Part shown: positions 40,449 to 50,562 of the stretch, piece after piece
Layout: each line of letters begins with the position of its first letter
How positions within the stretch are numbered: position 1 is the first letter of the stretch
Assembly (NCBI RefSeq): GCF_017641085.1
Contig: NZ_JAEPPI010000002.1
Location: 1-64,000, forward strand
Reading direction: 5' to 3'
Origin: Gracilimonas sp.
GTDB lineage: Bacteria > Bacteroidota > Rhodothermia > Balneolales > Balneolaceae
DNA length: 64,000 nt
Notes under the pieces: generated by a model
Databases searched by the model: none
What the model was told of the DNA's origin: nothing
What the model saw: only the letters and a program-made list of their open reading frames with translations
Translations under genes and position numbers: made by a program

Positions 40449-40934
40449 CTACTTCGAATACGGGCTCTCATAATCTGAAATTTTATACACCCATTTGTTC
40501 AGTCGGGTGAACAGGAAGTTAACCGTCACCAGAATAACAGTAGCCCCTGCTCCCAGCATATATTGTTTTAAGGCAATACTGATTCCAATACCTGCTGCCA
40601 TCAAAATAGTTGCGGAGGTAGTCAGGTACCGCACCATGGTTTTTGAGGTGCTTTTCAGGATGGTGCCGGCTCCTATAAAACTAACGCCCACAATCACCGC
40701 GTGAAGCATACGAATGGGATCAACGCCAAAGCTTTCGGTAGCGGCCAGCGTGCCAAAATCCTGAACCACGACCCTTCCCAAAGAAACCAGCAACGCCGCT
40801 GATCCCGCTATAATCATGTTCGTTCTTAATCCTGCCGGCTTTTGCTTCCATTCTCGCTCCAGCCCTAAAACACCGCCCAAGATCAAAGCGATGCTTACAT
40901 CCATCAATATGTACGATTGCGCTAATAAATCCAT
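40449..40934 (-). CDS. MgtC/SapB family membrane protein
   Basis: A 161-aa protein with about four or five transmembrane helices. The family signature LGGVLGLEREWKQKPAGLRTNMIIAGSAALL occupies residues 18-48, followed by DPIRMLHAVIVGVSFIGAGTI and the YLTTSATILMAAGIGISI helix. The extra C-terminal cytoplasmic domain of Salmonella MgtC is missing, so it is the short SapB-like form. MgtC-type proteins affect the F1Fo ATP synthase or Mg2+ homeostasis; the role here is unknown. I start at ATG 40934; an in-frame GTG lies four codons upstream. Confidence 0.92.
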   Translation of the reverse strand: MDLLAQSYILMDVSIALILGGVLGLEREWKQKPAGLRTNMIIAGSAALLVSLGRVVVQDFGTLAATESFGVDPIRMLHAVIVGVSFIGAGTILKSTSKTMVRYLTTSATILMAAGIGISIALKQYMLGAGATVILVTVNFLFTRLNKWVYKISDYESPYSK

Positions 40935-41123
40935 AATTCTAATCACTTAAGCTTGCTGATTCGGTTCCTTACTGATATAAAAGAAACAAGCCCCGCTTTG
41001 TTCCCTGCCAACCTGCGTATCTATACAGATGATAGAAAATAACAAATTAGTTTAATGTTAAACTATTGAATGATTCGTTGTATCTTGTGGTTGGTTTAAT
41101 AAATGCCAAATAAACGAGAAGCA

Positions 41124-42071
41124 ATGAAACATCAGAAAGGAATACATCACATTACAGCATTGGCCGGAGATGCTCAGCGCAATGCCGAATTTTACACGCA
41201 GGTTTTGGGCATGCGGCTGGTGAAGAAATCGGTGAATCAGGATGACCCTGGTACCTATCATTTGTTTTATGGAAATCAGTCTGCCAATCCGGGTTCAAGT
41301 TTAACCTTCTTCCCATGGCCGAATGCTGTTCAGGGCAAACCCGGAACTGGTGAAGTTGTGAATGTGGCACTTCAGGTTCCTGAAGGAACACAAGGTTACT
41401 GGGAATCTCGCCTCACTGATCACGATGTTGATTATACAGTGGAAGATGTTTTCGGAAGAACCGCACTTCGTTTCAGCGATCCCGACGGCATGGAACTGGA
41501 TCTGGTGTTTGAAGGGCAGGCAAAAGAAAAAGTGGAGAATGTGGATTACATCGTTCCCTTCGACAAAACCATTCAGGGATTCTGGGGAGCGCGCATGTAC
41601 CTGACCGAGCGTGAGCACACCGAGAAGCTACTTAACGAGTTATTCGAGTTCGAGCAAGTGGCGAATAAAGACAACCTATACTTATATCAAACCGATGCTG
41701 AAATTGGGCATTCGGTGATTATCGAAGTCGCTGATGCTCCCATTCACGGACAGAATGGTCGGGGTATAGTGCATCACATCGCTTTCCGGACTGAGAATAA
41801 GGAAGAACTGGACCAACTTCGCGAACAAGTAAGTAAGCGCGGACTTCACCCAACTCAAATTATCGACCGCCACTGGTTTAACTCTGTGTACTACAGGATA
41901 CCTGCCGGCGTGCTTTTTGAGATGGCTTCTGATGACCCCGGTTACACCGTAGATGAAGAATTTGAACACCTGGGAGAACACCTGATTCTTCCCCCATGGT
42001 TAGAAAACAAACGGGACCGGATTGAAGAAATCCTGCCGGAGATTAAGGTAACCTCAAAGGCAACATCCTAG
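41124..42071 (+). CDS. Ring-cleaving dioxygenase, MhqO-like (VOC superfamily)
   Basis: A 315-aa protein made of two vicinal-oxygen-chelate modules. The metal ligands are visible: His in KGIHHITALAGDAQ, His in GIVHHIAFRTEN and Glu in GVLFEMASDDPGYTVDE. The middle of the first module has FYTQVLGMRLVKKSVNQDDPGTYHLFYG, as in MhqO/LinE-type proteins that open hydroquinone rings. I start at ATG 41124, which has GAGAAG upstream; an ATG at 41103 has none. The next gene is an MhqD-like esterase, the pairing seen in Bacillus quinone-resistance operons. Role in quinone detoxification is inference from family and context. Confidence 0.88.
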   Translation: MKHQKGIHHITALAGDAQRNAEFYTQVLGMRLVKKSVNQDDPGTYHLFYGNQSANPGSSLTFFPWPNAVQGKPGTGEVVNVALQVPEGTQGYWESRLTDHDVDYTVEDVFGRTALRFSDPDGMELDLVFEGQAKEKVENVDYIVPFDKTIQGFWGARMYLTEREHTEKLLNELFEFEQVANKDNLYLYQTDAEIGHSVIIEVADAPIHGQNGRGIVHHIAFRTENKEELDQLREQVSKRGLHPTQIIDRHWFNSVYYRIPAGVLFEMASDDPGYTVDEEFEHLGEHLILPPWLENKRDRIEEILPEIKVTSKATS

Positions 42072-42075
42072 CACA

Positions 42076-42119
42076 TTTCTAACGTAGAGACACAAAATCT
42101 TGTGTCTCTACGTTAGAAA
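42076..42119. repeat. 20-bp-arm palindrome between dioxygenase and esterase genes
   Basis: Perfect 20-base arms (TTTCTAACGTAGAGACACAA and reverse complement) around the loop AATC. It starts 4 bases after the dioxygenase stop and ends just before an in-frame ATG at 42120. The GTAGAGAC...GTCTCTAC core places it in the same family as 61952-61989 and 33613-33646. It could act as a transcript-end or mRNA-stability hairpin within the operon. Confidence 0.85.
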
Positions 42120-42155
42120 ATGATTACCAAGTCCAATCCAATTACAATTGCATTC

Positions 42156-42824
42156 ATGAGTTTATTCCGTGTAACAGACAACACAAATTTCGAAGGTCCC
42201 CATCAAAACACACCAGTAGCTAAAGCCGGAGTACCTGCTTCAGAGGCCGATTACGCCATGATTATGATTCACGGTCGCGGAGCCAGCGCTCCCAGCATAC
42301 TCGACCTGAGTTCCGCATTCGAAACCGATAAAAAAATCACCTATCGGGCACCTCAGGCAAATGGACACACCTGGTATCCCTATTCTTTTATGGCCCCAAC
42401 CGAAAGGAACGAGCCCGGCCTGTCTTCCGGTCTTCAGAAAATTCATGACATCATTGAGGAACTCGAGTCGGATGGCATCTCAAAAGACCGAATCTTTCTT
42501 CTGGGGTTTTCTCAGGGAGCGTGTCTTGCTTCTGAGTTTATAGCGCGTCACCCTGCAAAGTATGCCGGCTTGATTGCATTGAGTGGAGGTGTGATCGGCG
42601 AATCTGTGGATTTTGACCAATACACCGGCGACCTTCAAAAAACTCCGGCTTTTTTAGGCTGCAGTGATGTTGATCCACATATCCCCAAAGAACGCGTTAA
42701 TGAAACCGAAGAACTTCTGAAGCAGTTGGGCGCAGATGTCACCAAAAAACTATACACGGGCATGGGACACCTTGTGAATGAAGATGAGATCAAGCATATT
42801 AATGCCTTATTAAATTCAAAATGA
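42156..42824 (+). CDS. Alpha/beta hydrolase, MhqD-like carboxylesterase/phospholipase
   Basis: A 222-aa serine hydrolase. The oxyanion region MIMIHGRGASAPSIL, nucleophile elbow LLGFSQGACLASEF (GFSQG), Asp in GCSDVDPHIP and His in YTGMGHLVNEDEI give a complete triad. The family is carboxylesterase/phospholipase (Abhydrolase_2), like MhqD. ATG 42156 is preferred because an earlier in-frame ATG (42120) abuts a perfect hairpin. Its stop codon lies inside the start of an AT-rich palindromic repeat. Likely partner of the upstream dioxygenase. Confidence 0.87.
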   Translation: MSLFRVTDNTNFEGPHQNTPVAKAGVPASEADYAMIMIHGRGASAPSILDLSSAFETDKKITYRAPQANGHTWYPYSFMAPTERNEPGLSSGLQKIHDIIEELESDGISKDRIFLLGFSQGACLASEFIARHPAKYAGLIALSGGVIGESVDFDQYTGDLQKTPAFLGCSDVDPHIPKERVNETEELLKQLGADVTKKLYTGMGHLVNEDEIKHINALLNSK

Positions 42825-42893
42825 AAGATGAAAAATTAAAAATTGGTTGGACACCTATTTTTAATTTTTCATTTTGAATCTTTAATTCACAAA
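42815..42893. repeat. AT-rich palindromic repeat, copy 1
   Basis: Left arm AATTCAAAATGAAAGATG then AAAAATTAAAAATT, right arm ATTTTTAATTTTTCATTTTG. The arms are complementary with a short middle (GGTTGGACACC). The element overlaps the end of the esterase gene and supplies its stop codon. A second copy lies at 46638-46730. The cation antiporter starts 2 bases after it. Confidence 0.7.
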
Positions 42894-42894
42894 C

Positions 42895-44463
42895 ATGGAA
42901 ATTCTTTGGCTGGCAGCAGCCTATGTTCTGGGGATGGCTGTATCGCGACTTAAGTTGCCGCCACTGGTCGGTTTTCTCGGTGCCGGTATTATTCTCTCTC
43001 TTTTGGGATTTGAAACCACCGACACCCTTCACGAGATCGGGCATCTCGGGGTTTTATTTCTACTGTTTACGGTAGGTCTTCACCTGCGCCTTAAAAGTAT
43101 TCTGCGACCGGAAGTTTTGGGCGCGGGTGGTATCCATCTCGCCTTAACTGCCGGAGTATTCGGACTGATTGCCTCCTTTTTCGGATACGAGCTTGTTGAA
43201 GCTGTCATAATTGGTATCCTTCTGGGCTTTTCAAGTACGGTGCTGGCCGCCAAATCCCTGGAAGACCGCGGCGAACTCGGCGCTTTCCACGCCCGTGTCT
43301 CTATCGGTATTTTGATTTTGCAGGATATTGTTGCCATCGCTTTGCTGGCTTTAACCGGTGGCGGCGTGCCTTCCATATGGGGCTTGGCTTTACTGGCTCT
43401 GCCCCTTTTCCGCCCGCTGTTAATTAAAGCCCTAATTGCTAGCGGACATGATGAACTTCAGCTTTTATTCGCCTTAATTTTAGCTATCGGCGGCGGAGCT
43501 CTTTTTGAAGTATTGGGACTATCATCCGAACTGGGTGCTTTAGTAGCAGGTGCTCTGCTTTCCGGCCATAAACTTGCTGATGAACTCACCCACAAACTTT
43601 GGGGACTCAAAGAGGCCTTTCTGGTTGGATTCTTTCTGGAAGTGGGCCTTGCAGGATTACCGGGTTACAACGAACTGATATTCTGCGTGGTCATTTTAGC
43701 CTTACTCCCCATCAAATCCATACTCTACTTCTTTTTGCTGGTGGGATTCAAACTGCGATCCAGAAACTCCTTTCTGGTTACTACCACGCTCACTTCTTAC
43801 AGTGAATTTACCCTCATTGCCGGAATTGTAGCCGTTTCAGGTGGCTTCATCCCGGAAACCGTTGTTACCAGTTTCGCCTTGCTTGTGGCAGTATCTTATG
43901 CCATCAACGCTCCGCTTTCTGCAAATGTAAATGCCCTTTGGAGTCGGTTTGAGCTTTCCCTGCTCAAGTACGAACGGGATGTCAAACATCCGGGTCAGCA
44001 GGTGGTCTCGCTTGGCAGTGCAAATTACCTGGTGGTTGGAATGGGGCAGGCCGGTTCATCCGCTTATGAGTACATGAAATATTACGGCCACAAAGTAATT
44101 GGTATGGATGCAGATCCGGCCAAGCTGGAAGAAAATATTCAAAGCAAAAGACGGGTAGTGTACGGTGATGCCCGCGATCCCGAATTATGGGAGAACATCA
44201 ATCTTGAAAATATTAAAGCCATCATGCTGGCTATCCCAAATCCCGGCACTAAAGTGGAAGCCACAAAATTGCTCCGTCAATATGGTTATAATGGAGATGT
44301 AGTGGCCCTGACCATGCGAAGCGACGAACATAAAGCTCTTAGAGAAGCGGGAGCTACGGCGGTTTGTCTGCCGATGTCTCAGGCTGGGAAAAAGTTAGCT
44401 GAACTCAGCCTCGAAGAAGGCCCGTCAGAGAGCACTTCGCTTAACCTGACTTTTGACCGATGA
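42895..44463 (+). CDS. CPA2 cation:proton antiporter with RCK (TrkA-N) domain
   Basis: A 522-aa KefB/KefC/YbaL-like protein. About twelve helices (residues 1-370) start MEILWLAAAYVLGMAVSRLKLP and include the CPA2 segment GHLGVLFLLFTVGLHLRLKS and ELGALVAGALLSGHKLADEL. The C-terminal cytoplasmic RCK_N Rossmann domain begins NYLVVGMGQAGSSAYEYMK with acidic DADPAKLEEN to bind NAD(H) or AMP. Kef proteins release K+ in exchange for H+ when electrophiles attack the cell. The start of a DsbA-like gene overlaps the stop (ATGA). Ion specificity cannot be read. Confidence 0.92.
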   Translation: MEILWLAAAYVLGMAVSRLKLPPLVGFLGAGIILSLLGFETTDTLHEIGHLGVLFLLFTVGLHLRLKSILRPEVLGAGGIHLALTAGVFGLIASFFGYELVEAVIIGILLGFSSTVLAAKSLEDRGELGAFHARVSIGILILQDIVAIALLALTGGGVPSIWGLALLALPLFRPLLIKALIASGHDELQLLFALILAIGGGALFEVLGLSSELGALVAGALLSGHKLADELTHKLWGLKEAFLVGFFLEVGLAGLPGYNELIFCVVILALLPIKSILYFFLLVGFKLRSRNSFLVTTTLTSYSEFTLIAGIVAVSGGFIPETVVTSFALLVAVSYAINAPLSANVNALWSRFELSLLKYERDVKHPGQQVVSLGSANYLVVGMGQAGSSAYEYMKYYGHKVIGMDADPAKLEENIQSKRRVVYGDARDPELWENINLENIKAIMLAIPNPGTKVEATKLLRQYGYNGDVVALTMRSDEHKALREAGATAVCLPMSQAGKKLAELSLEEGPSESTSLNLTFDR

Positions 44464-44984
44464 GCGATTTATATGCTGAAATATCAGATGATGACTATAT
44501 GCTGGGTAACCCTGATGCACCAGTCACATTGCTCGAATATGGTGACTATGAGTGCCCATACAGCCGGCTGGGATATCGTTTTTCGCAGATGTTGCTGAAG
44601 AAGTATAAGCAGAAGCTGAAGTTTGTATTCCGAAATTTCCCGCTTCGCAAAAAACACCCGAACGCTCAGTTAGCAGCTGAGGCGGCTTTGTGCGCCGGTG
44701 CTCAGGATCGGTTCTGGGAGATGCACAACCTGCTTTTTAAACACAACCGAAGGCTGAGTGAAAACAGAATTCTTGAATTTGCTGAAGATATCGGGCTCGA
44801 TTTATATCGCTTTAAGGTAAACCTGACAACCAATGAATTTGCCGGTCGGGTTACCGCTGATTTCCGGGGTGGTGTTAAAAGCGGCGTAGACGACACTCCT
44901 ACTTTTTTTGTGAACGGAAAGCGATATTCCGGTGAATTGGATTATAATCAATTGAAGGCTTTTGTTGATACTTTCCTGAACTAA
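44460..44984 (+). CDS. DsbA-family thioredoxin-fold protein with CPYS active site
   Basis: A 174-aa protein without signal peptide, so probably cytoplasmic. It begins with PVTLLEYGDYECPYSRLGYR: the usual CxxC is C32-P-Y-S35, so the second cysteine is lost. The cis-Pro loop VDDTPTFFVNGKRY and the helical insert are normal. The only other Cys is in ALCAGAQ, not close in sequence. Similar domains are fused to the C-terminus of some NhaA antiporters. Here the gene overlaps the antiporter by 4 bases, so it may be a redox-responsive or chaperone-like partner of it. A monothiol mechanism is inferred. Confidence 0.88.
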   Translation: MSDLYAEISDDDYMLGNPDAPVTLLEYGDYECPYSRLGYRFSQMLLKKYKQKLKFVFRNFPLRKKHPNAQLAAEAALCAGAQDRFWEMHNLLFKHNRRLSENRILEFAEDIGLDLYRFKVNLTTNEFAGRVTADFRGGVKSGVDDTPTFFVNGKRYSGELDYNQLKAFVDTFLN

Positions 44985-44994
44985 ATAAACGCTT

Positions 44995-45252
44995 ATGGCT
45001 TGCTCGCACAAAGATATGATCAAGGTTGTAAATACTGCCGAAGATGTTTGCCCGGATTGTGTGGAGCAGGACAGTTCTTGGGTTCACCTGCGCATGTGTA
45101 TGACTTGTGGTTATGTGGGTTGCTGCGATTCATCCCCAAACAAACACGCCCGCGCTCATTTCGAGGAATCTCATCATCCCATCATCCGCTCTGTCGAACC
45201 CGGTGAAGAATGGCGCTGGTGTTATATCGATGAACTATACATGAGGCCCTGA
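44995..45252 (+). CDS. UBP-type zinc-finger protein
   Basis: An 85-aa single-domain protein of the ubiquitin-hydrolase zinc-finger (ZnF_UBP) type. Metal-binding residues follow the family order: Cys3/His5, Cys19/Cys22 (DVCPDCVEQ), Cys35/Cys38 (RMCMTCGYVGCCDSS), Cys43 and His51/His55/His61 in the KHARAHFEESHHP block, with conserved WVHLRMC and the terminal WCYIDE. In eukaryotes this fold binds the free ubiquitin C-terminus; bacteria have no canonical ubiquitin, so the ligand is unknown. The gene is 10 bases after the DsbA-like gene and its stop overlaps the kinase start (TGATG). Confidence 0.93.
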   Translation: MACSHKDMIKVVNTAEDVCPDCVEQDSSWVHLRMCMTCGYVGCCDSSPNKHARAHFEESHHPIIRSVEPGEEWRWCYIDELYMRP

Positions 45253-46637
45253 TGGACGACTATATCGTAAAAGGGATTCAATCGTTTCCTCAGTTTTCCG
45301 AGGTTCCGGAAGATCAAATTCGGGAGTATGTTCGGTTGTCGGAAGTGTGCACTTACCAACCGGATGAGGTGATTGTAAAGCCCGGTGACGAAATCAACAA
45401 GATGTACCTGCTGCTTGAAGGAAACATTCGGCTGCAACTTAAGCGGGGAGACCAATTTACCGTTATCGATACTTTTGAAGCCGGCGACCTCACCGGAAAG
45501 CTTCCCTTTTCAAGACTTCAATCGTCTCTGGCTTATGTAACTGTAATAGAGGAATCGACTGTTTTAATCACCCATGAGGATAAATTCCCCGAAATTGCTG
45601 CTCATTATCAGCTAATCGAATCTTTTGTGCATGCCCTCTCCGATCGTATTCGTCATTTCACTACCCAGCAGCAACAAAACGAGAAATTACTGGCCCTGGG
45701 TAAACTATCTGCCGGTTTAGCCCATGAGCTGAATAATCCCGCTTCGGCTATGGTCAGAAGCGCTACTTCCCTGAAAGCAAACCTTCACGCCAAACCCGAA
45801 AAGTTTAAAGGCATGATGGAGCTCAAACTTTCAGAAGAACAAGTGGATGCCATAAACAAGGTGATTTTCAATAAGCTGAATGCTGAGATTCCCTCCCTTT
45901 CTTTGATAGAAAGAACATCGCTTGAAGATGACCTGGCTGATTGGATGGAAGGTCACGGTATTGAAGAAGCTTATGAACTGGCAGAAACATTTGCTGAACA
46001 CGGATTCGATGTAGAGTCTCTTGAACAAATCAAAGATATCGGTGATGAAGCCTTGCTCCCCCCGGTTTTTAAATGGATTGAAGATGTGTTTGTTACCGAA
46101 AAGATGATTGCTGAGGTTGAGGATGCATCTCGTCGTATTTCTGACCTGGTTTCGTCGGTGAAAACCTATTCGCATATGGATCAGGCAAATGAGAAGCAGC
46201 CGGTTGAACTGGAAAAGTTGTTGAAAAGCACGCTCAGTATTTTAAATCATCAAATAAAAGAAAAACAGGTATCGGTAGAAGTAAACATCCCCGATGATTT
46301 ACCAGAGTTTTGTGGGTTTGTGAGTGAATTGAATCAGGTATGGATGAACCTGCTCGACAATGCCGTTGATGCGATTGAGAAAGAGGGCCGTATCGAGGTT
46401 TCTGCCGAGGCCAAAAACGGAGACCTTAGAATTTATTTTAAAGACAATGGAACAGGCATCCCGGAGGACATTCAAACCAAAATTTTCGATCCTTTTTTTA
46501 CAACCAAAGGTATAGGAGAAGGAACCGGCCTCGGTCTCGATTTTGTCCGTAAAATTGTAAATAAGCACAATGGCACCATCTCCGTACAATCCAAACCCGG
46601 CGAAACCATCTTCGAACTCTGTTTTCCACTTAACTAA
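45252..46637 (+). CDS. Cyclic-nucleotide-binding-domain histidine kinase
   Basis: A 461-aa soluble kinase. Residues about 12-125 form a CRP-type cNMP-binding fold (YLLLEGNIRLQLKRGDQF, TFEAGDLTGKLPF) but without a clear Arg-containing phosphate-binding cassette, so the ligand may not be cAMP. Then HisKA with KLSAGLAHELNNPASAMVRS (His158), a long helical insert (about 180-310), and an ATPase domain (WMNLLDNAVDAIEKEG, FKDNGTGIPEDI, GTGLGLDFVRKIV). No membrane segment. GAGG lies just before the ATG. The likely phosphorylation target is the response regulator 95 bases downstream. Confidence 0.92.
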   Translation: MDDYIVKGIQSFPQFSEVPEDQIREYVRLSEVCTYQPDEVIVKPGDEINKMYLLLEGNIRLQLKRGDQFTVIDTFEAGDLTGKLPFSRLQSSLAYVTVIEESTVLITHEDKFPEIAAHYQLIESFVHALSDRIRHFTTQQQQNEKLLALGKLSAGLAHELNNPASAMVRSATSLKANLHAKPEKFKGMMELKLSEEQVDAINKVIFNKLNAEIPSLSLIERTSLEDDLADWMEGHGIEEAYELAETFAEHGFDVESLEQIKDIGDEALLPPVFKWIEDVFVTEKMIAEVEDASRRISDLVSSVKTYSHMDQANEKQPVELEKLLKSTLSILNHQIKEKQVSVEVNIPDDLPEFCGFVSELNQVWMNLLDNAVDAIEKEGRIEVSAEAKNGDLRIYFKDNGTGIPEDIQTKIFDPFFTTKGIGEGTGLGLDFVRKIVNKHNGTISVQSKPGETIFELCFPLN

Positions 46638-46730
46638 TTCAAAATTAAAGATGAAAAATTTAAAATTATCCTCAGCATTTAATTATAGCCTCGTCCTTAA
46701 TTTTAAATTTTAAATTTTTAATTCCTTCAG
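46638..46730. repeat. AT-rich palindromic repeat, copy 2
   Basis: Begins AATTCAAAATTAAAGATG then AAAAATTTAAAATTA, very close to the left arm at 42815-42893, and ends in TTAATTTTAAATTTTAAA and TTTTTAATT. The middle differs. It separates the kinase from the response-regulator gene and stops 2 bases before the latter's ATG. Confidence 0.7.
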
Positions 46731-46732
46731 GA

Positions 46733-48400
46733 ATGAGTAAACCGATCATTTTTGTAATTGATGATGATGCCCAGGTCCTTCGTGCGGTAACGAGAGATTT
46801 GCGCAACAAATACCGCAGTGAGTATCGGATTATGAGTACCGATTCTTGCAGAGAAGCCCTGGAGTCGTTGCCTGAGCTGAAGAAAAAGGGTGAAACAGTA
46901 GCACTCTTTCTCAGCGATCAGCGCATGCCGGAGATGATGGGAGTCGAGTTTCTGGAAAAGGCCAGGCAAACCTACCCCGATGCCAAGCGCGTGTTACTGA
47001 CTGCTTATTCCGATATGGAAGCCGCTATCAAAGCCATCAACGATGTGCAGCTGGATTATTATTTATTGAAACCCTGGGATCCTCCCGAAGAAAAACTTTA
47101 TCCTGTTCTGGATGACCAACTGGATGAATGGCTCGCTGATTTCAAACCGGAATTTCATGGAATACGACTGGTAGGCTATCAGTACTCGCCAAAGTCTCAT
47201 GCGGTCAAAGACTACCTTTCCGGAAATCTGATTCCCTACCGCTGGCTTGATATTGAAGCTAATGATAAAGCCCGGGAGCTTCTGGATGATTACGAAATCA
47301 ATACCAACGACCTACCAGCTATCTTTTTTGAAGATGGAAGTCATTTTACCGAACCCTCCCCTAAAACCATTGCTGAGAAGCTGGGAAGAAATCCCACCGC
47401 AAATGAAACCATTTATGACGTAGCTATCATTGGTGCCGGTCCTGCCGGACTTGCCGCAGCCGTTTACGGAGGTTCGGAAGGACTGAAAACACTGCTTATC
47501 GAAAAGCGGGCGCCGGGCGGCCAGGCGGGAACAAGCTCGCGGATCGAAAATTATCTCGGATTCCCCAAAGGATTGAGTGGGTCTGATTTAGCCCGCCGTG
47601 CCATCACACAGGCGAAACGTTTTGGCGTGGAGTTTTTATCTCCGCAGGAAGTGGTTGACATCTCACTCACCGATCAATACAAAACCGTAAAAATGGCGGA
47701 CGGTTCTGAGATTAATGCCAAGGCGGTGGTGGTTACCACCGGGGTTAATTACCGGAAGCTGGAAAGCAAAGGGATTTCCGATTTTACGGGCGCCGGGATT
47801 TACTATGGTGCAGCCATGACGGAAGCCCATGCTTTCAAGGATAAGCAGGTGTACATCGTTGGGGGTGGGAACTCAGCAGGACAAGCCGCTATGTATTTAT
47901 CCACTTTTGCAAAAGACGTGAAGATTTTGATTCGCGGAAAATCGTTGGTTTCAAGCATGTCTTCGTACCTGATACATCAGCTTAATGATACAGAAAACAT
48001 CGAAGTGATAGCCCACACCGAAGTGGAAGAAGCCTGTGGTGATGGAAAGCTTGAGAAGTTGGTTTTGTTCAATAATCAGAAAGACGACCGGCAAGATGTG
48101 GAGGCAGATGGACTCTTCATTTTTATCGGTGCCCGGCCCTATACCGACTGGATCAAAGCGGATGTTATTAAAAGTGAACGCGGATTTATTGAAACCGGGA
48201 GAGATCTGCAGCGATACGATAATTTTAAAAAAACTTGGAAGCTGGACCGACAGCCATTTCTGTTAGAAACTTGCTCACCCGGTATTTTTGCGGCCGGCGA
48301 TGTGCGTGCCGGAGCCATGAATCGTGTGGCCTCTGCTGTGGGGGAAGGGTCCATGGCCATCAAATATGTTCATGAATACCTGGCAGATTCAAATACCTGA
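46733..48400 (+). CDS. Response regulator fused to glutaredoxin-like and thioredoxin-reductase-like domains
   Basis: A 555-aa three-part protein. Residues 1-125 are a receiver domain (IDDDAQ acidic pocket, phospho-acceptor Asp62 in LFLSDQRMP, Lys in YLLKPW). Residues about 140-215 are a glutaredoxin-like fold (RLVGYQYSPKSHAVKDYL) with SPKS in place of CxxC. Residues 225-555 are a low-molecular-weight thioredoxin-reductase-like flavoprotein with FAD loop IIGAGPAGLAAAVYGG (near 234), NADPH loop IVGGGNSAGQAA (near 376) and GIFAAGDVRAGAMNRVASAVGEG. The reductase CxxC is replaced by GAGIYYGAAMTEA (about 353-365). It cannot be an ordinary thioredoxin reductase; I infer a phosphorylation-controlled NADPH:flavin enzyme acting on an unknown acceptor. 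Confidence 0.9.
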   Translation: MSKPIIFVIDDDAQVLRAVTRDLRNKYRSEYRIMSTDSCREALESLPELKKKGETVALFLSDQRMPEMMGVEFLEKARQTYPDAKRVLLTAYSDMEAAIKAINDVQLDYYLLKPWDPPEEKLYPVLDDQLDEWLADFKPEFHGIRLVGYQYSPKSHAVKDYLSGNLIPYRWLDIEANDKARELLDDYEINTNDLPAIFFEDGSHFTEPSPKTIAEKLGRNPTANETIYDVAIIGAGPAGLAAAVYGGSEGLKTLLIEKRAPGGQAGTSSRIENYLGFPKGLSGSDLARRAITQAKRFGVEFLSPQEVVDISLTDQYKTVKMADGSEINAKAVVVTTGVNYRKLESKGISDFTGAGIYYGAAMTEAHAFKDKQVYIVGGGNSAGQAAMYLSTFAKDVKILIRGKSLVSSMSSYLIHQLNDTENIEVIAHTEVEEACGDGKLEKLVLFNNQKDDRQDVEADGLFIFIGARPYTDWIKADVIKSERGFIETGRDLQRYDNFKKTWKLDRQPFLLETCSPGIFAAGDVRAGAMNRVASAVGEGSMAIKYVHEYLADSNT

Positions 48401-48463
48401 TGGTTCCTTACAAAAGATTTATCCCACTCCCGCTTAGAAATCTTATATTATGGCCGATGTGTA

Positions 48464-48518
48464 ATTCCCGGTAATAAGGACAGGGAAGCTTCCACCGGCA
48501 CAACCGTAAATCGTGCCG
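48464..48518 (+). promoter_or_regulatory. Possible structured leader of the endonuclease gene
   Basis: Two hairpins upstream of the endonuclease gene: ATTCCC with GGGAA(T-like) (48464-48469/48483-48487), whose right arm also sits in the alternative stem GGAAG/CTTCC, and CGGCAC/GTGCCG (48496-48501/48513-48518). The mutually exclusive pairing could be regulatory. I do not recognise a riboswitch class and the pairing may be chance. Confidence 0.25.
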
Positions 48519-48564
48519 TCACCACTTCTTTTTTAAAAACGATCATCTAATCCAACCGGAAGGC

Positions 48565-50562
48565 ATGGCATACCCAAATTCCATCACCCAAAAAGCAGCG
48601 GCTTTAATCTTTGTGTTTTCACTGCTTTTCTCCACCTCCGCATTTTCTCAAAGTTGTCCGACACAAGGCACCCAGATTTTTCCAGAACTCTCCGGGCAGG
48701 AACTGCTGGATGCATTGGTACAGGAATACGGAACCACAGATAACATCAGCTATGATAACGCCCGGGATATTCTCTATTCTGAAATTGATAATAAAAATGA
48801 TTCTTTGACCACAATTTATACCGGCTATAGAATCTATCTCGATCCCAATAACGATCCAAGTACGGATGCTTTTGAAAAAGACGTAAACGCAGAACACAGC
48901 TGGCCGCAAAGTAAGGGAGCTTCAACGGAGCCTGCTCGTTCCGATATGCATCATCTTTTTCCGGCCTATTCCCGCGCCAACAGTGCCCGCGGAAATCACC
49001 CTTTTTATGAAATTCCGGACCAGGAAACCGATACCTGGTGGCGTCTTGATCAGGATGTTTCCAATCCTGATGGCAATGTAGTTGATGAATACAGCGAGTA
49101 CAGGGATTCACACCCCAACAGTTCTTATTCGGCCAGCTGGGAACCCCGCGAAAGCGTAAAAGGTGATATTGCCCGTGCCGTTTTCTACTTCTACACCATG
49201 TACAAAACACAGGCCGACAATGCCGACCCTATTTTCTTTGAAATTCAGAAAGATTTTCTCCGCAACTGGAATTCTGTGGACGCGGTTTCAACCACGGAAT
49301 ACGAGAGGACGTGTGCCATCGCGGATATACAAGGGAATGAAGTGAACCCATTTGTGATTGACCCATCCCTGGTAGAGCGCGCTTATTTTGAAGGTGAAAT
49401 CAGCCAGACTAACGTAGAATTTTCAGCTTCTGTTTTGAACTTCAGTGAAGGAGACGGAGCCATAGAAATCGAGCTTTCCATCACCAACCCAAATGCAGAT
49501 ACAGCCACTACGGTGGATGTGATTTACTCGGGTGGAACCGCTACTTCCGGCGATGACTTCCAGGTCTTTACCAGCCAAAGCGTAACCTTCCCGGCCGGAT
49601 CCTTAGATCGACAATCGGTGACTCTCACCTTAATTGATGATGACCTGGAAGAAGGAGACGAAACCATTTTATTGGGATTAGAAAACGTTTCCGGGCCACA
49701 GCAAGCGGTGATTGGGTCTGCGAACTCCACTGAGATTACCATTCGGGATAATGATGGGGAAACACCCTCAGCTGCCTGGATAAATGAAATGCATTATGAT
49801 AATGACGGCGGTGATCAGGGGGAATTTGTAGAAATTGCGGTAAATTCGGAATTCGCTGACCTCACCGATGTCACCCTAAGCCTGTACAACGGAAATGGCG
49901 GCTCCGTTTATGCCACCTACTCCGGCAACGATTTTACCGCCGGCGATACCGAAAACGGTATTTCCATTTTCTATGTGGATCTTCCGGTAAACGGATTACA
50001 AAACGGTAGCCCGGATGGCATGAGCCTGGATATTGGCGGCGAACTCATTCAGTTTCTTTCTTATGAAGGTGCTTTTACTGCGGTTGACGGCCCTGCCCAG
50101 GATGTTGAAAGTACGGACATTGGAGTGGAACAGCCCGGCAACAGTTCTGTGGGCAGTTCACTTTCTCTTGAAGGAACCGGTTCAGCATACAAGGACTTTA
50201 GCTGGGCATTCACCGAATCTAACACTAAAGGCTCGGTGAACACCAATCAGACCTTTGAAACTCCTACTTCCAATGAAGACGAAAACCCAACCATCGCCGA
50301 CGATTTCAACCTTCACCAAAACTACCCAAATCCGTTTAACCCAACTACCAACATTAGTTATGAGTTAAAAAATGCGGTTGATGTTACCCTGTCCGTTTAT
50401 AATGTACTTGGACAAAAAGTTGTGACTTTGGTGGATGGAATGAAAAGTGCCGGTTCACATATGGCCACGTTTGATGCTTCCGGTTTATCCAGCGGAGTGT
50501 ATTTCTATCAGCTGAGAGCCGGTGAAGTTACCTTCACACAGAAGATGTTGCTATCTAAATAA
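48565..50562 (+). CDS. Secreted endonuclease I with Calx-beta and T9SS sorting domain
   Basis: A 665-aa exported nuclease. Signal peptide ends near SAFSQ. Residues about 40-275 are the Endonuclease_1 (EndA-like) domain with catalytic and metal-binding blocks NAEHSWPQSKG and SDMHHLFPAYSRANSARGNHPF. A Calx-beta domain follows (about 282-395: FSEGDGAIEIELSITN, IDDDLEEGDETILLGL), then a LTD-like segment (INEMHYDNDGGDQGEFVEIA) and a C-terminal PNPFNPTTNISYELK sorting domain. It probably degrades extracellular DNA for nutrients or in biofilms. GGAAGG precedes the ATG. It lies alone after the redox locus. Confidence 0.92.
   Translation: MAYPNSITQKAAALIFVFSLLFSTSAFSQSCPTQGTQIFPELSGQELLDALVQEYGTTDNISYDNARDILYSEIDNKNDSLTTIYTGYRIYLDPNNDPSTDAFEKDVNAEHSWPQSKGASTEPARSDMHHLFPAYSRANSARGNHPFYEIPDQETDTWWRLDQDVSNPDGNVVDEYSEYRDSHPNSSYSASWEPRESVKGDIARAVFYFYTMYKTQADNADPIFFEIQKDFLRNWNSVDAVSTTEYERTCAIADIQGNEVNPFVIDPSLVERAYFEGEISQTNVEFSASVLNFSEGDGAIEIELSITNPNADTATTVDVIYSGGTATSGDDFQVFTSQSVTFPAGSLDRQSVTLTLIDDDLEEGDETILLGLENVSGPQQAVIGSANSTEITIRDNDGETPSAAWINEMHYDNDGGDQGEFVEIAVNSEFADLTDVTLSLYNGNGGSVYATYSGNDFTAGDTENGISIFYVDLPVNGLQNGSPDGMSLDIGGELIQFLSYEGAFTAVDGPAQDVESTDIGVEQPGNSSVGSSLSLEGTGSAYKDFSWAFTESNTKGSVNTNQTFETPTSNEDENPTIADDFNLHQNYPNPFNPTTNISYELKNAVDVTLSVYNVLGQKVVTLVDGMKSAGSHMATFDASGLSSGVYFYQLRAGEVTFTQKMLLSK

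Follow-up and report, generated by a model that had tools for sequence, protein, structure and literature searches.

Bacterial UBP-type zinc fingers (ZF-UBP) were reportedly first placed, in the abstract of a 2011 article by Burroughs, Iyer, and Aravind, in a predicted "cyclic nucleotide-dependent redox signaling system". To our knowledge, these fingers, which are annotated widely (e.g., in Streptomyces, Burkholderia, and Rhizobium), have no tested function, and the cassette described here has never been tested experimentally; a literature search found no experimental study of a bacterial UBP system among the papers that it covered. The 2011 article (PMID 21547297) is cited in PMC4506424. In the Kef systems, KefF is a flavoprotein quinone reductase that serves as an ancillary subunit activating KefC, and kefF overlaps the KefC gene (PMC10224563); the glutathione site of KefC is built from R409, Q412, R416, R498, R516, and N551 (PMC11150392). 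A fusion of receiver (REC) and thioredoxin reductase (TrxR) domains has been named as a "Mycobacterium-like combination" (PMC5847659). Here we describe a locus in a window of 64,000 nucleotides from Gracilimonas sp. (Balneolaceae; assembly GCF_017641085.1, contig NZ_JAEPPI010000002.1, positions 1 to 64,000 of the forward strand) that consists of two joined modules. Module A encodes an MhqO-like dioxygenase, an MhqD-like hydrolase, and a Kef-like antiporter, and module B encodes a UBP zinc finger, a histidine kinase with a cNMP-type (CNB) domain, and a flavoprotein with REC, glutaredoxin-like (Grx-like), and TrxR-like parts.

Our leading reading, which we hold tentatively and with a little less than even confidence, is that a cluster for electrophile and quinone defense has been joined to a conserved phospho-signaling cassette, in which the UBP finger would dock the kinase-controlled flavoprotein onto the antiporter. 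The original prediction, made from the sequence of this window alone, had presented the locus as the best candidate in the window for an undescribed system, a description that has to be withdrawn given the ZF-UBP/cNMP redox signaling predicted in 2011 and the REC-TrxR fusions already named.

Association of the UBP zinc finger with antiporters

The gene order of the locus is near-identical in many Balneolaceae genomes. At the 17 Balneolaceae UBP loci, one of which lies on a cut contig, an antiporter always adjoins UBP, and the kinase is found at 15, REC-TrxR at 14, MhqO at 13, and DsbA at 10. In the order (~111 genomes), 18 genomes carry UBP, 18 carry full-length REC-TrxR, and 16 carry both (hypergeometric p about 3e-15, a value that is only a guide because phylogeny and shared ancestry are ignored), and a Kef gene is present in 18/18 of the REC-TrxR genomes. 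The near-identical order and the co-occurrence of UBP with REC-TrxR indicate that the locus is not a product of chance. In two genomes (G016 and G030), Kef and UBP are kept and the kinase and REC-TrxR are gone. A same-genus genome carries, in addition, what looks like a decaying paralogue (L036, G029 contig C6): a second Kef-DsbA pair in which DsbA is shortened, together with a fragment of UBP and, upstream, a Grx-TrxR gene that has no REC.

Outside Balneolaceae, the finger is found on the antiporter itself. The other Rhodothermia supplied 15 loci, 13 of them with an antiporter, and in 11 (including L104, L105, L106, and L161) UBP is fused at the antiporter C terminus; the same fusion is found at five actinomycetotal loci (L052, L185, L208, L209, and L213) and in Deinococcus. 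In a tree of the antiporter domain, the actinobacterial antiporters lie far from those bearing RCK, and the Balneolaceae antiporters are separate from the fused Rhodothermia and Deinococcus ones. From these sequences we infer that UBP is linked to antiporters, by fusion or, in Balneolaceae, by adjacency, in three antiporter lineages; the number of origins is likewise inferred because the root of the tree is arbitrary. The recurrent fusions, together with the retention of Kef and UBP in G016 and G030, point to physical coupling between finger and antiporter.

The cassette itself is distributed widely. Seven of the other Rhodothermia loci have REC-TrxR and the kinase, and the set of REC-TrxR, antiporter-UBP, and kinase is conserved in L104, L105, L108, L165, L166, L169, and L170, with REC-TrxR, MhqO, MhqD, antiporter-RCK-UBP, and kinase in a single run in L165. 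Elsewhere in Bacteroidota, REC-TrxR, kinase, and UBP are all present at L111, and at L112 and L114 UBP is accompanied by CNB-Grx-TrxR or Grx-TrxR; cyanobacterial loci L047 and L048 combine REC-TrxR, two CNB-kinases, and UBP. The better-scoring actinobacterial UBP loci, 40 in number and not a random draw, have REC-TrxR nearby in 9 cases and a related kinase nearby in 11, and Streptomyces fungicidicus p1 has an FAD-dependent oxidoreductase, an ATP-binding protein, and UBP in tandem. Kinase and UBP are fused in L211, L112, L199, and Rhodococcus have CNB joined directly to the flavoprotein, flavoprotein and UBP genes are divergent in Burkholderia pyrrocinia, and Deinococcus aetherius has a REC-flavoprotein with a kinase. 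The conserved neighborhood in distant genomes that the original prediction called for is thus observed, with module B present in Bacteroidota, Cyanobacteria, and Actinomycetota and the kinase-flavoprotein pair in Deinococcota.

Three of these neighborhoods have additional features. The cyanobacterial loci encode a large protein with a CNB-like N terminus directly after UBP. At L169 (8216-10594), a Kef-like antiporter with RCK and TrkA_C carries a C-terminal glutaredoxin domain and sits beside separate UBP, kinase, and REC-TrxR genes. On the pA plasmid of Rhodococcus pyridinivorans (L234:1-6960), the UBP/flavoprotein pair lies inside a chaperone operon (dnaK-grpE-J domain-cbpM-clpB-trxA-UBP-CNB-TrxR).

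Signaling residues and redox cysteines

In terms of phosphotransfer, which the original prediction proposed, the phospho-residues are kept in kinase and receiver, and the assignment of the two-component output to a receiver-flavoprotein is borne out. The phospho-accepting His158 of the kinase lies within HELNNP and the N/G-box residues are invariant (alignment A2); the HisKA match is weak (6e-4). On the receiver side, Asp62 and Lys113 are found in the window protein and in every REC-bearing homologue. The dimerization domain of the kinase contains a conserved helical insertion of ~85 residues (about 180-265) that characterizes this family of kinases and may serve for docking; Foldseek searches with the kinase model returned kinase cores only and gave no hint of the CNB ligand. 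When aligned to CRP, used as the yardstick, the CNB domains of the window kinase and its close relatives have no equivalents of Glu72 and Arg82 and carry a motif of their own, G-x-L-P-x-S-R. On this ground, we disfavor the view that the window kinase senses cAMP in the classical way. A few actinobacterial kinases retain a more canonical cassette, GEMALL...PR.

The flavoprotein has a TrxR fold (7jyp, E 8e-48; Foldseek match of the AlphaFold2 model to 5mh4, TM (target) 0.93), and a glutaredoxin-fold domain is inserted between REC and the TrxR-like part at residues about 144-216 (AlphaFold2 model, mean pLDDT 88). CxxC occurs nowhere in any of 35 flavoprotein homologues taken from all groups: Y-G-A-A-x-T-E-A-like motifs stand at the TrxR redox center, and the Grx-like domain has SPKS where CPYC is expected, with S-x-x-S across homologues and a single Cys retained in one (L097). 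The protein scores below the TIGR01292 cut-off (239 versus 343), and its identity as a plain thioredoxin reductase is rejected on the missing cysteines. TrxR-fold ferredoxin/flavodoxin-NADP reductases, likewise CxxC-less, rank lower in its structure match list. Because the family has no CxxC, disulfide reduction is implausible; because the TrxR fold is retained, a role involving NAD(P)H and FAD is plausible. Members of the family that have been named automatically as thioredoxin-disulfide reductases are therefore, judging from their sequences, unlikely to reduce disulfides.

The DsbA-like protein has a monothiol active site, Cys32-Pro-Tyr-Ser, with cis-Pro147 and no evident signal peptide; CP[YF]S is found in 12/12 Balneolaceae copies and CxxC in none. 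The UBP finger is related to the bacterial NMR/crystal structure 2ida (E 1e-26), and its Cys/His framework is kept across all full-length relatives. It shares with eukaryotic ZnF-UBP domains (HDAC6, USP5) the zinc-ligand framework and the Trp/Tyr at the C-terminal end, but differs in an additional, near-invariant Cys-Cys-Asp motif and in Ser46, which occupies the alignment position of the arginine that clamps the ubiquitin tail. This arginine is of the HDAC6 R1155 type, which grips the free C-terminal carboxylate in HDAC6 and USP fingers. With the tail-gripping residue missing, ubiquitin-tail binding is disfavored, and the suggestion that the finger binds C-terminal tails as in eukaryotes is not sustained.

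Layout of the locus and module A

The original prediction had counted five plus-strand genes, the first four overlapping or no more than 10 bases apart. The open reading frames agree with this, the spacings from antiporter through DsbA, UBP, and kinase to REC-TrxR being -4, +10, -1, and +95 bp, and Pfam matches agree with the domain identities assigned to the five, the DsbA-like protein being monothiol as stated (Table 1). The extent was drawn too short; the unit reaches upstream to 41103 and takes in the MhqO-like and MhqD-like genes, which are syntenic in relatives.

Table 1. Genes of the locus, with positions in the window
Feature	Position	Strand	Best evidence
MhqO-like ring-cleaving dioxygenase, two VOC/glyoxalase domains, module A	41103..42071	+	Glyoxalase PF00903; 3oaj E 8.5e-69
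MhqD-like phospholipase/carboxylesterase (alpha/beta hydrolase), module A	42120..42824	+	Abhydrolase_2 7e-24
Kef-like CPA2 K+(Na+)/H+ antiporter with RCK (TrkA_N), 522 aa	42895..44463	+	Na_H_Exchanger 4e-35, TrkA_N 4e-20
Monothiol DsbA-like thioredoxin-fold protein, 174 aa	44460..44984	+	Thioredoxin_4 3e-25 / DSBA 8e-16
Stand-alone UBP-type zinc finger, 85 aa	44995..45252	+	zf-UBP 8e-14
Soluble histidine kinase, N-terminal CNB (cNMP-type), 461 aa	45252..46637	+	cNMP_binding 4e-11, HATPase_c 9e-26
Receiver + cysteine-less Grx-like + cysteine-less TrxR-like FAD/NAD(P) flavoprotein, 555 aa	46733..48400	+	Response_reg 6e-16, Pyr_redox_2 2e-38

The MhqO-like protein matches the B. subtilis MhqO structure 3oaj over its whole length, with both VOC domains, and its gene, syntenic in Balneolaceae, sits between REC-TrxR and antiporter-UBP in L165. 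This MhqO-family neighbor supports an electrophile/quinone stress context, in line with the electrophile stress raised originally. The MhqD-like protein belongs to the same superfamily as MhqD only (21 bits versus a cut-off of 325 for NCBIfam NF047577). The antiporter has a CPA2 transmembrane domain and an RCK domain, as in KefC and KefB, with the QD-motif Asp144 present and KefC (8bxg, E 9e-29) as its nearest solved structure; its NCBIfam KefC score is 134 versus a cut-off of 752. None of the six KefC glutathione residues is found in the alignment: Q385, S388, E392, M474, and P492 align to R409, Q412, R416, R498, and R516, and there is no C-terminal extension. A glutathione-gated Kef is rejected on this basis, and no ancillary flavodoxin-fold subunit of the KefF/KefG type was found among the genes neighboring the antiporter.

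The distance between MhqO and Kef is no more than 6 kb in 16/40 Kef genomes of the order without REC-TrxR and in 15/18 with it, and several MhqO-MhqD-Kef runs in the order have no module B. Adjacency in genomes that do not have the cassette ties Kef to quinone defense, and the locus is therefore read as an older quinone/electrophile cluster to which a signaling cassette was added.

Scanning 40900-48700 for promoters and terminators yielded no excess of sites over shuffled sequence. Between the MhqO-like and MhqD-like genes, a near-perfect 30-base palindrome, CGTAGAGACACAAAATCTTGTGTCTCTACG (42083-42112), occurs as a single copy within the window and resembles an attenuator or a dispersed palindromic repeat. 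One family of AT-rich inverted repeats (AAATTAAAGATGAAAAATT and its complement; 3 matches in the window versus 0.1 expected) lies in the gaps ahead of the antiporter (42819-42881) and of the receiver-flavoprotein (46642-46720). Downstream, a secreted endonuclease I with Calx-beta and a type IX secretion tail (48565-50562) adjoins the locus in several same-genus genomes and is probably unrelated to it.

Proposed mechanism, rivals, and known systems

In the mechanism we propose, the CNB domain would sense a small ligand other than classical cAMP, and sensing would lead to phosphotransfer from His158 of the kinase to Asp62 of the receiver, the direction of signaling being presumed. Phosphorylation would alter the flavoprotein, a candidate redox- or NAD(P)H-responsive regulator or quinone-type reductase, since it has NAD(P)H/FAD-binding folds but no disulfide chemistry. 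UBP would act as an adaptor that docks flavoprotein and kinase on the antiporter at its RCK side, and the docked flavoprotein/UBP may then change K+ efflux and H+ entry under quinone or electrophile stress, by analogy with KefF on KefC. That the two-component output is ion transport rather than transcription, passing from the phosphorylated cysteine-less flavoprotein through UBP to RCK as a glutathione-independent, kinase-controlled counterpart of KefF-KefC in electrophile protection, is a possibility we regard as rather doubtful.

Several observations weigh against the leading reading. Neighbors of the kinds seen at the locus are absent from most UBP genes in Actinomycetota, Acidobacteria, Chloroflexi, and Alphaproteobacteria, and no conserved UBP partner was found within 5 kb in the neighborhoods of the latter three; G005 and G031 retain kinase and REC-TrxR but lost UBP; the antiporter has no conserved glutathione site; and the cassette occurs without a nearby antiporter in Actinomycetota, cyanobacteria, and Bacteroidia, so that the antiporter cannot be its sole target. 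This last distribution, together with Kef-MhqO pairs that have no cassette and a flavoprotein that is CxxC-less as are the TrxR-fold ferredoxin/flavodoxin-NADP reductases, favors the main rival, that the cassette is an independent unit whose flavoprotein is a phosphorylation-switched NAD(P)H-dependent reductase of quinones or small molecules, with the antiporter and MhqO/MhqD as parallel, co-expressed effectors. We consider this possible but unlikely; against it, the repeated UBP-antiporter fusions and the Kef-UBP pairs of G016 and G030 point to physical coupling.

The wording of Burroughs et al. (2011), in which a redox output of the thioredoxin-reductase type is switched when cAMP or cGMP binds the CNB domain, draws on the CNB domains fused to the kinase in the window and, in L112, L199, and Rhodococcus, to the flavoprotein. 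It is improbable here, given the missing Glu72/Arg82 equivalents and a CxxC in 0/35 flavoproteins, and may hold for the few actinobacterial kinases with the canonical cassette. A thiol-disulfide relay, carrying reductase electrons through the DsbA-like protein to the antiporter, would suit an operon that pairs thioredoxin-fold proteins with a TrxR-fold flavoprotein, and the related L169 antiporter with its own glutaredoxin domain. However, a redox-active cysteine pair is found in neither the flavoprotein, the Grx-like domain, nor DsbA, and DsbA is missing from 7/17 of the family's UBP loci; the relay is rejected on the missing cysteines in flavoprotein and DsbA, and we give it hardly any credence. 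Of the original proposal that zinc finger and DsbA signal to or from the antiporter, UBP coupling stands, since antiporters of more than one lineage are fused to the finger, and the thiol route from DsbA and reductase falls. Inherited co-location of housekeeping stress genes with no joint function is comparably far-fetched; Balneolaceae genomes are related and their counts not independent, but distant phyla show these partners again, arranged and fused in different ways, which largely refutes it.

If docking of the flavoprotein through UBP is correct, a phosphorelay would have a flavin regulator and an ion transporter as its targets, giving a glutathione-free route to Kef-type gating, and the results suggest that phosphorylation may be a means by which bacteria switch ion efflux during poisoning with reactive chemicals. 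The UBP-antiporter fusions in separate lineages, the kinase-flavoprotein partner, and the quinone-defense neighbors suggest a specific function of bacterial UBP that can be tested, namely that it controls K+/H+ exchange when electrophiles cause stress.

As in the MhqNOPED genes of Bacillus and Staphylococcus (PMC6798810), an MhqO homologue lies beside an alpha/beta hydrolase; unlike there, the genes are joined to a Kef antiporter, and no MarR-type MhqR was found adjacent in a search that was not exhaustive. The window flavoprotein has the same domain fusion as the REC-thioredoxin reductase regulators that were only named in PMC5847659; shown in addition here are its Grx-like domain in the middle and the absence of every CxxC motif. 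With KefC-KefF and KefB-KefG, which mediate glutathione-gated K+ efflux in E. coli, the locus shares a CPA2 antiporter with RCK and QD motif, an overlapping soluble-partner gene, a flavoprotein in the operon, and an electrophile context. It differs in an antiporter without the glutathione-site residues or the C-terminal helices carrying N551, in a flavoprotein that is TrxR-fold and receiver-controlled whereas the KefF type is a flavodoxin-fold quinone reductase, and in its zinc finger partner. Like the ZF-UBP system reportedly predicted in 2011, the locus has ZF-UBP, a CNB domain, and a TrxR-like protein near or fused in conserved neighborhoods; the window lineage adds a Kef-like RCK antiporter, MhqO/MhqD-like enzymes, and a monothiol DsbA, and has neither redox cysteines nor canonical cNMP residues. 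The locus is thus best read as a variant of that predicted redox system that would be wired, by analogy with KefF-KefC, to electrophile-responsive K+ efflux.

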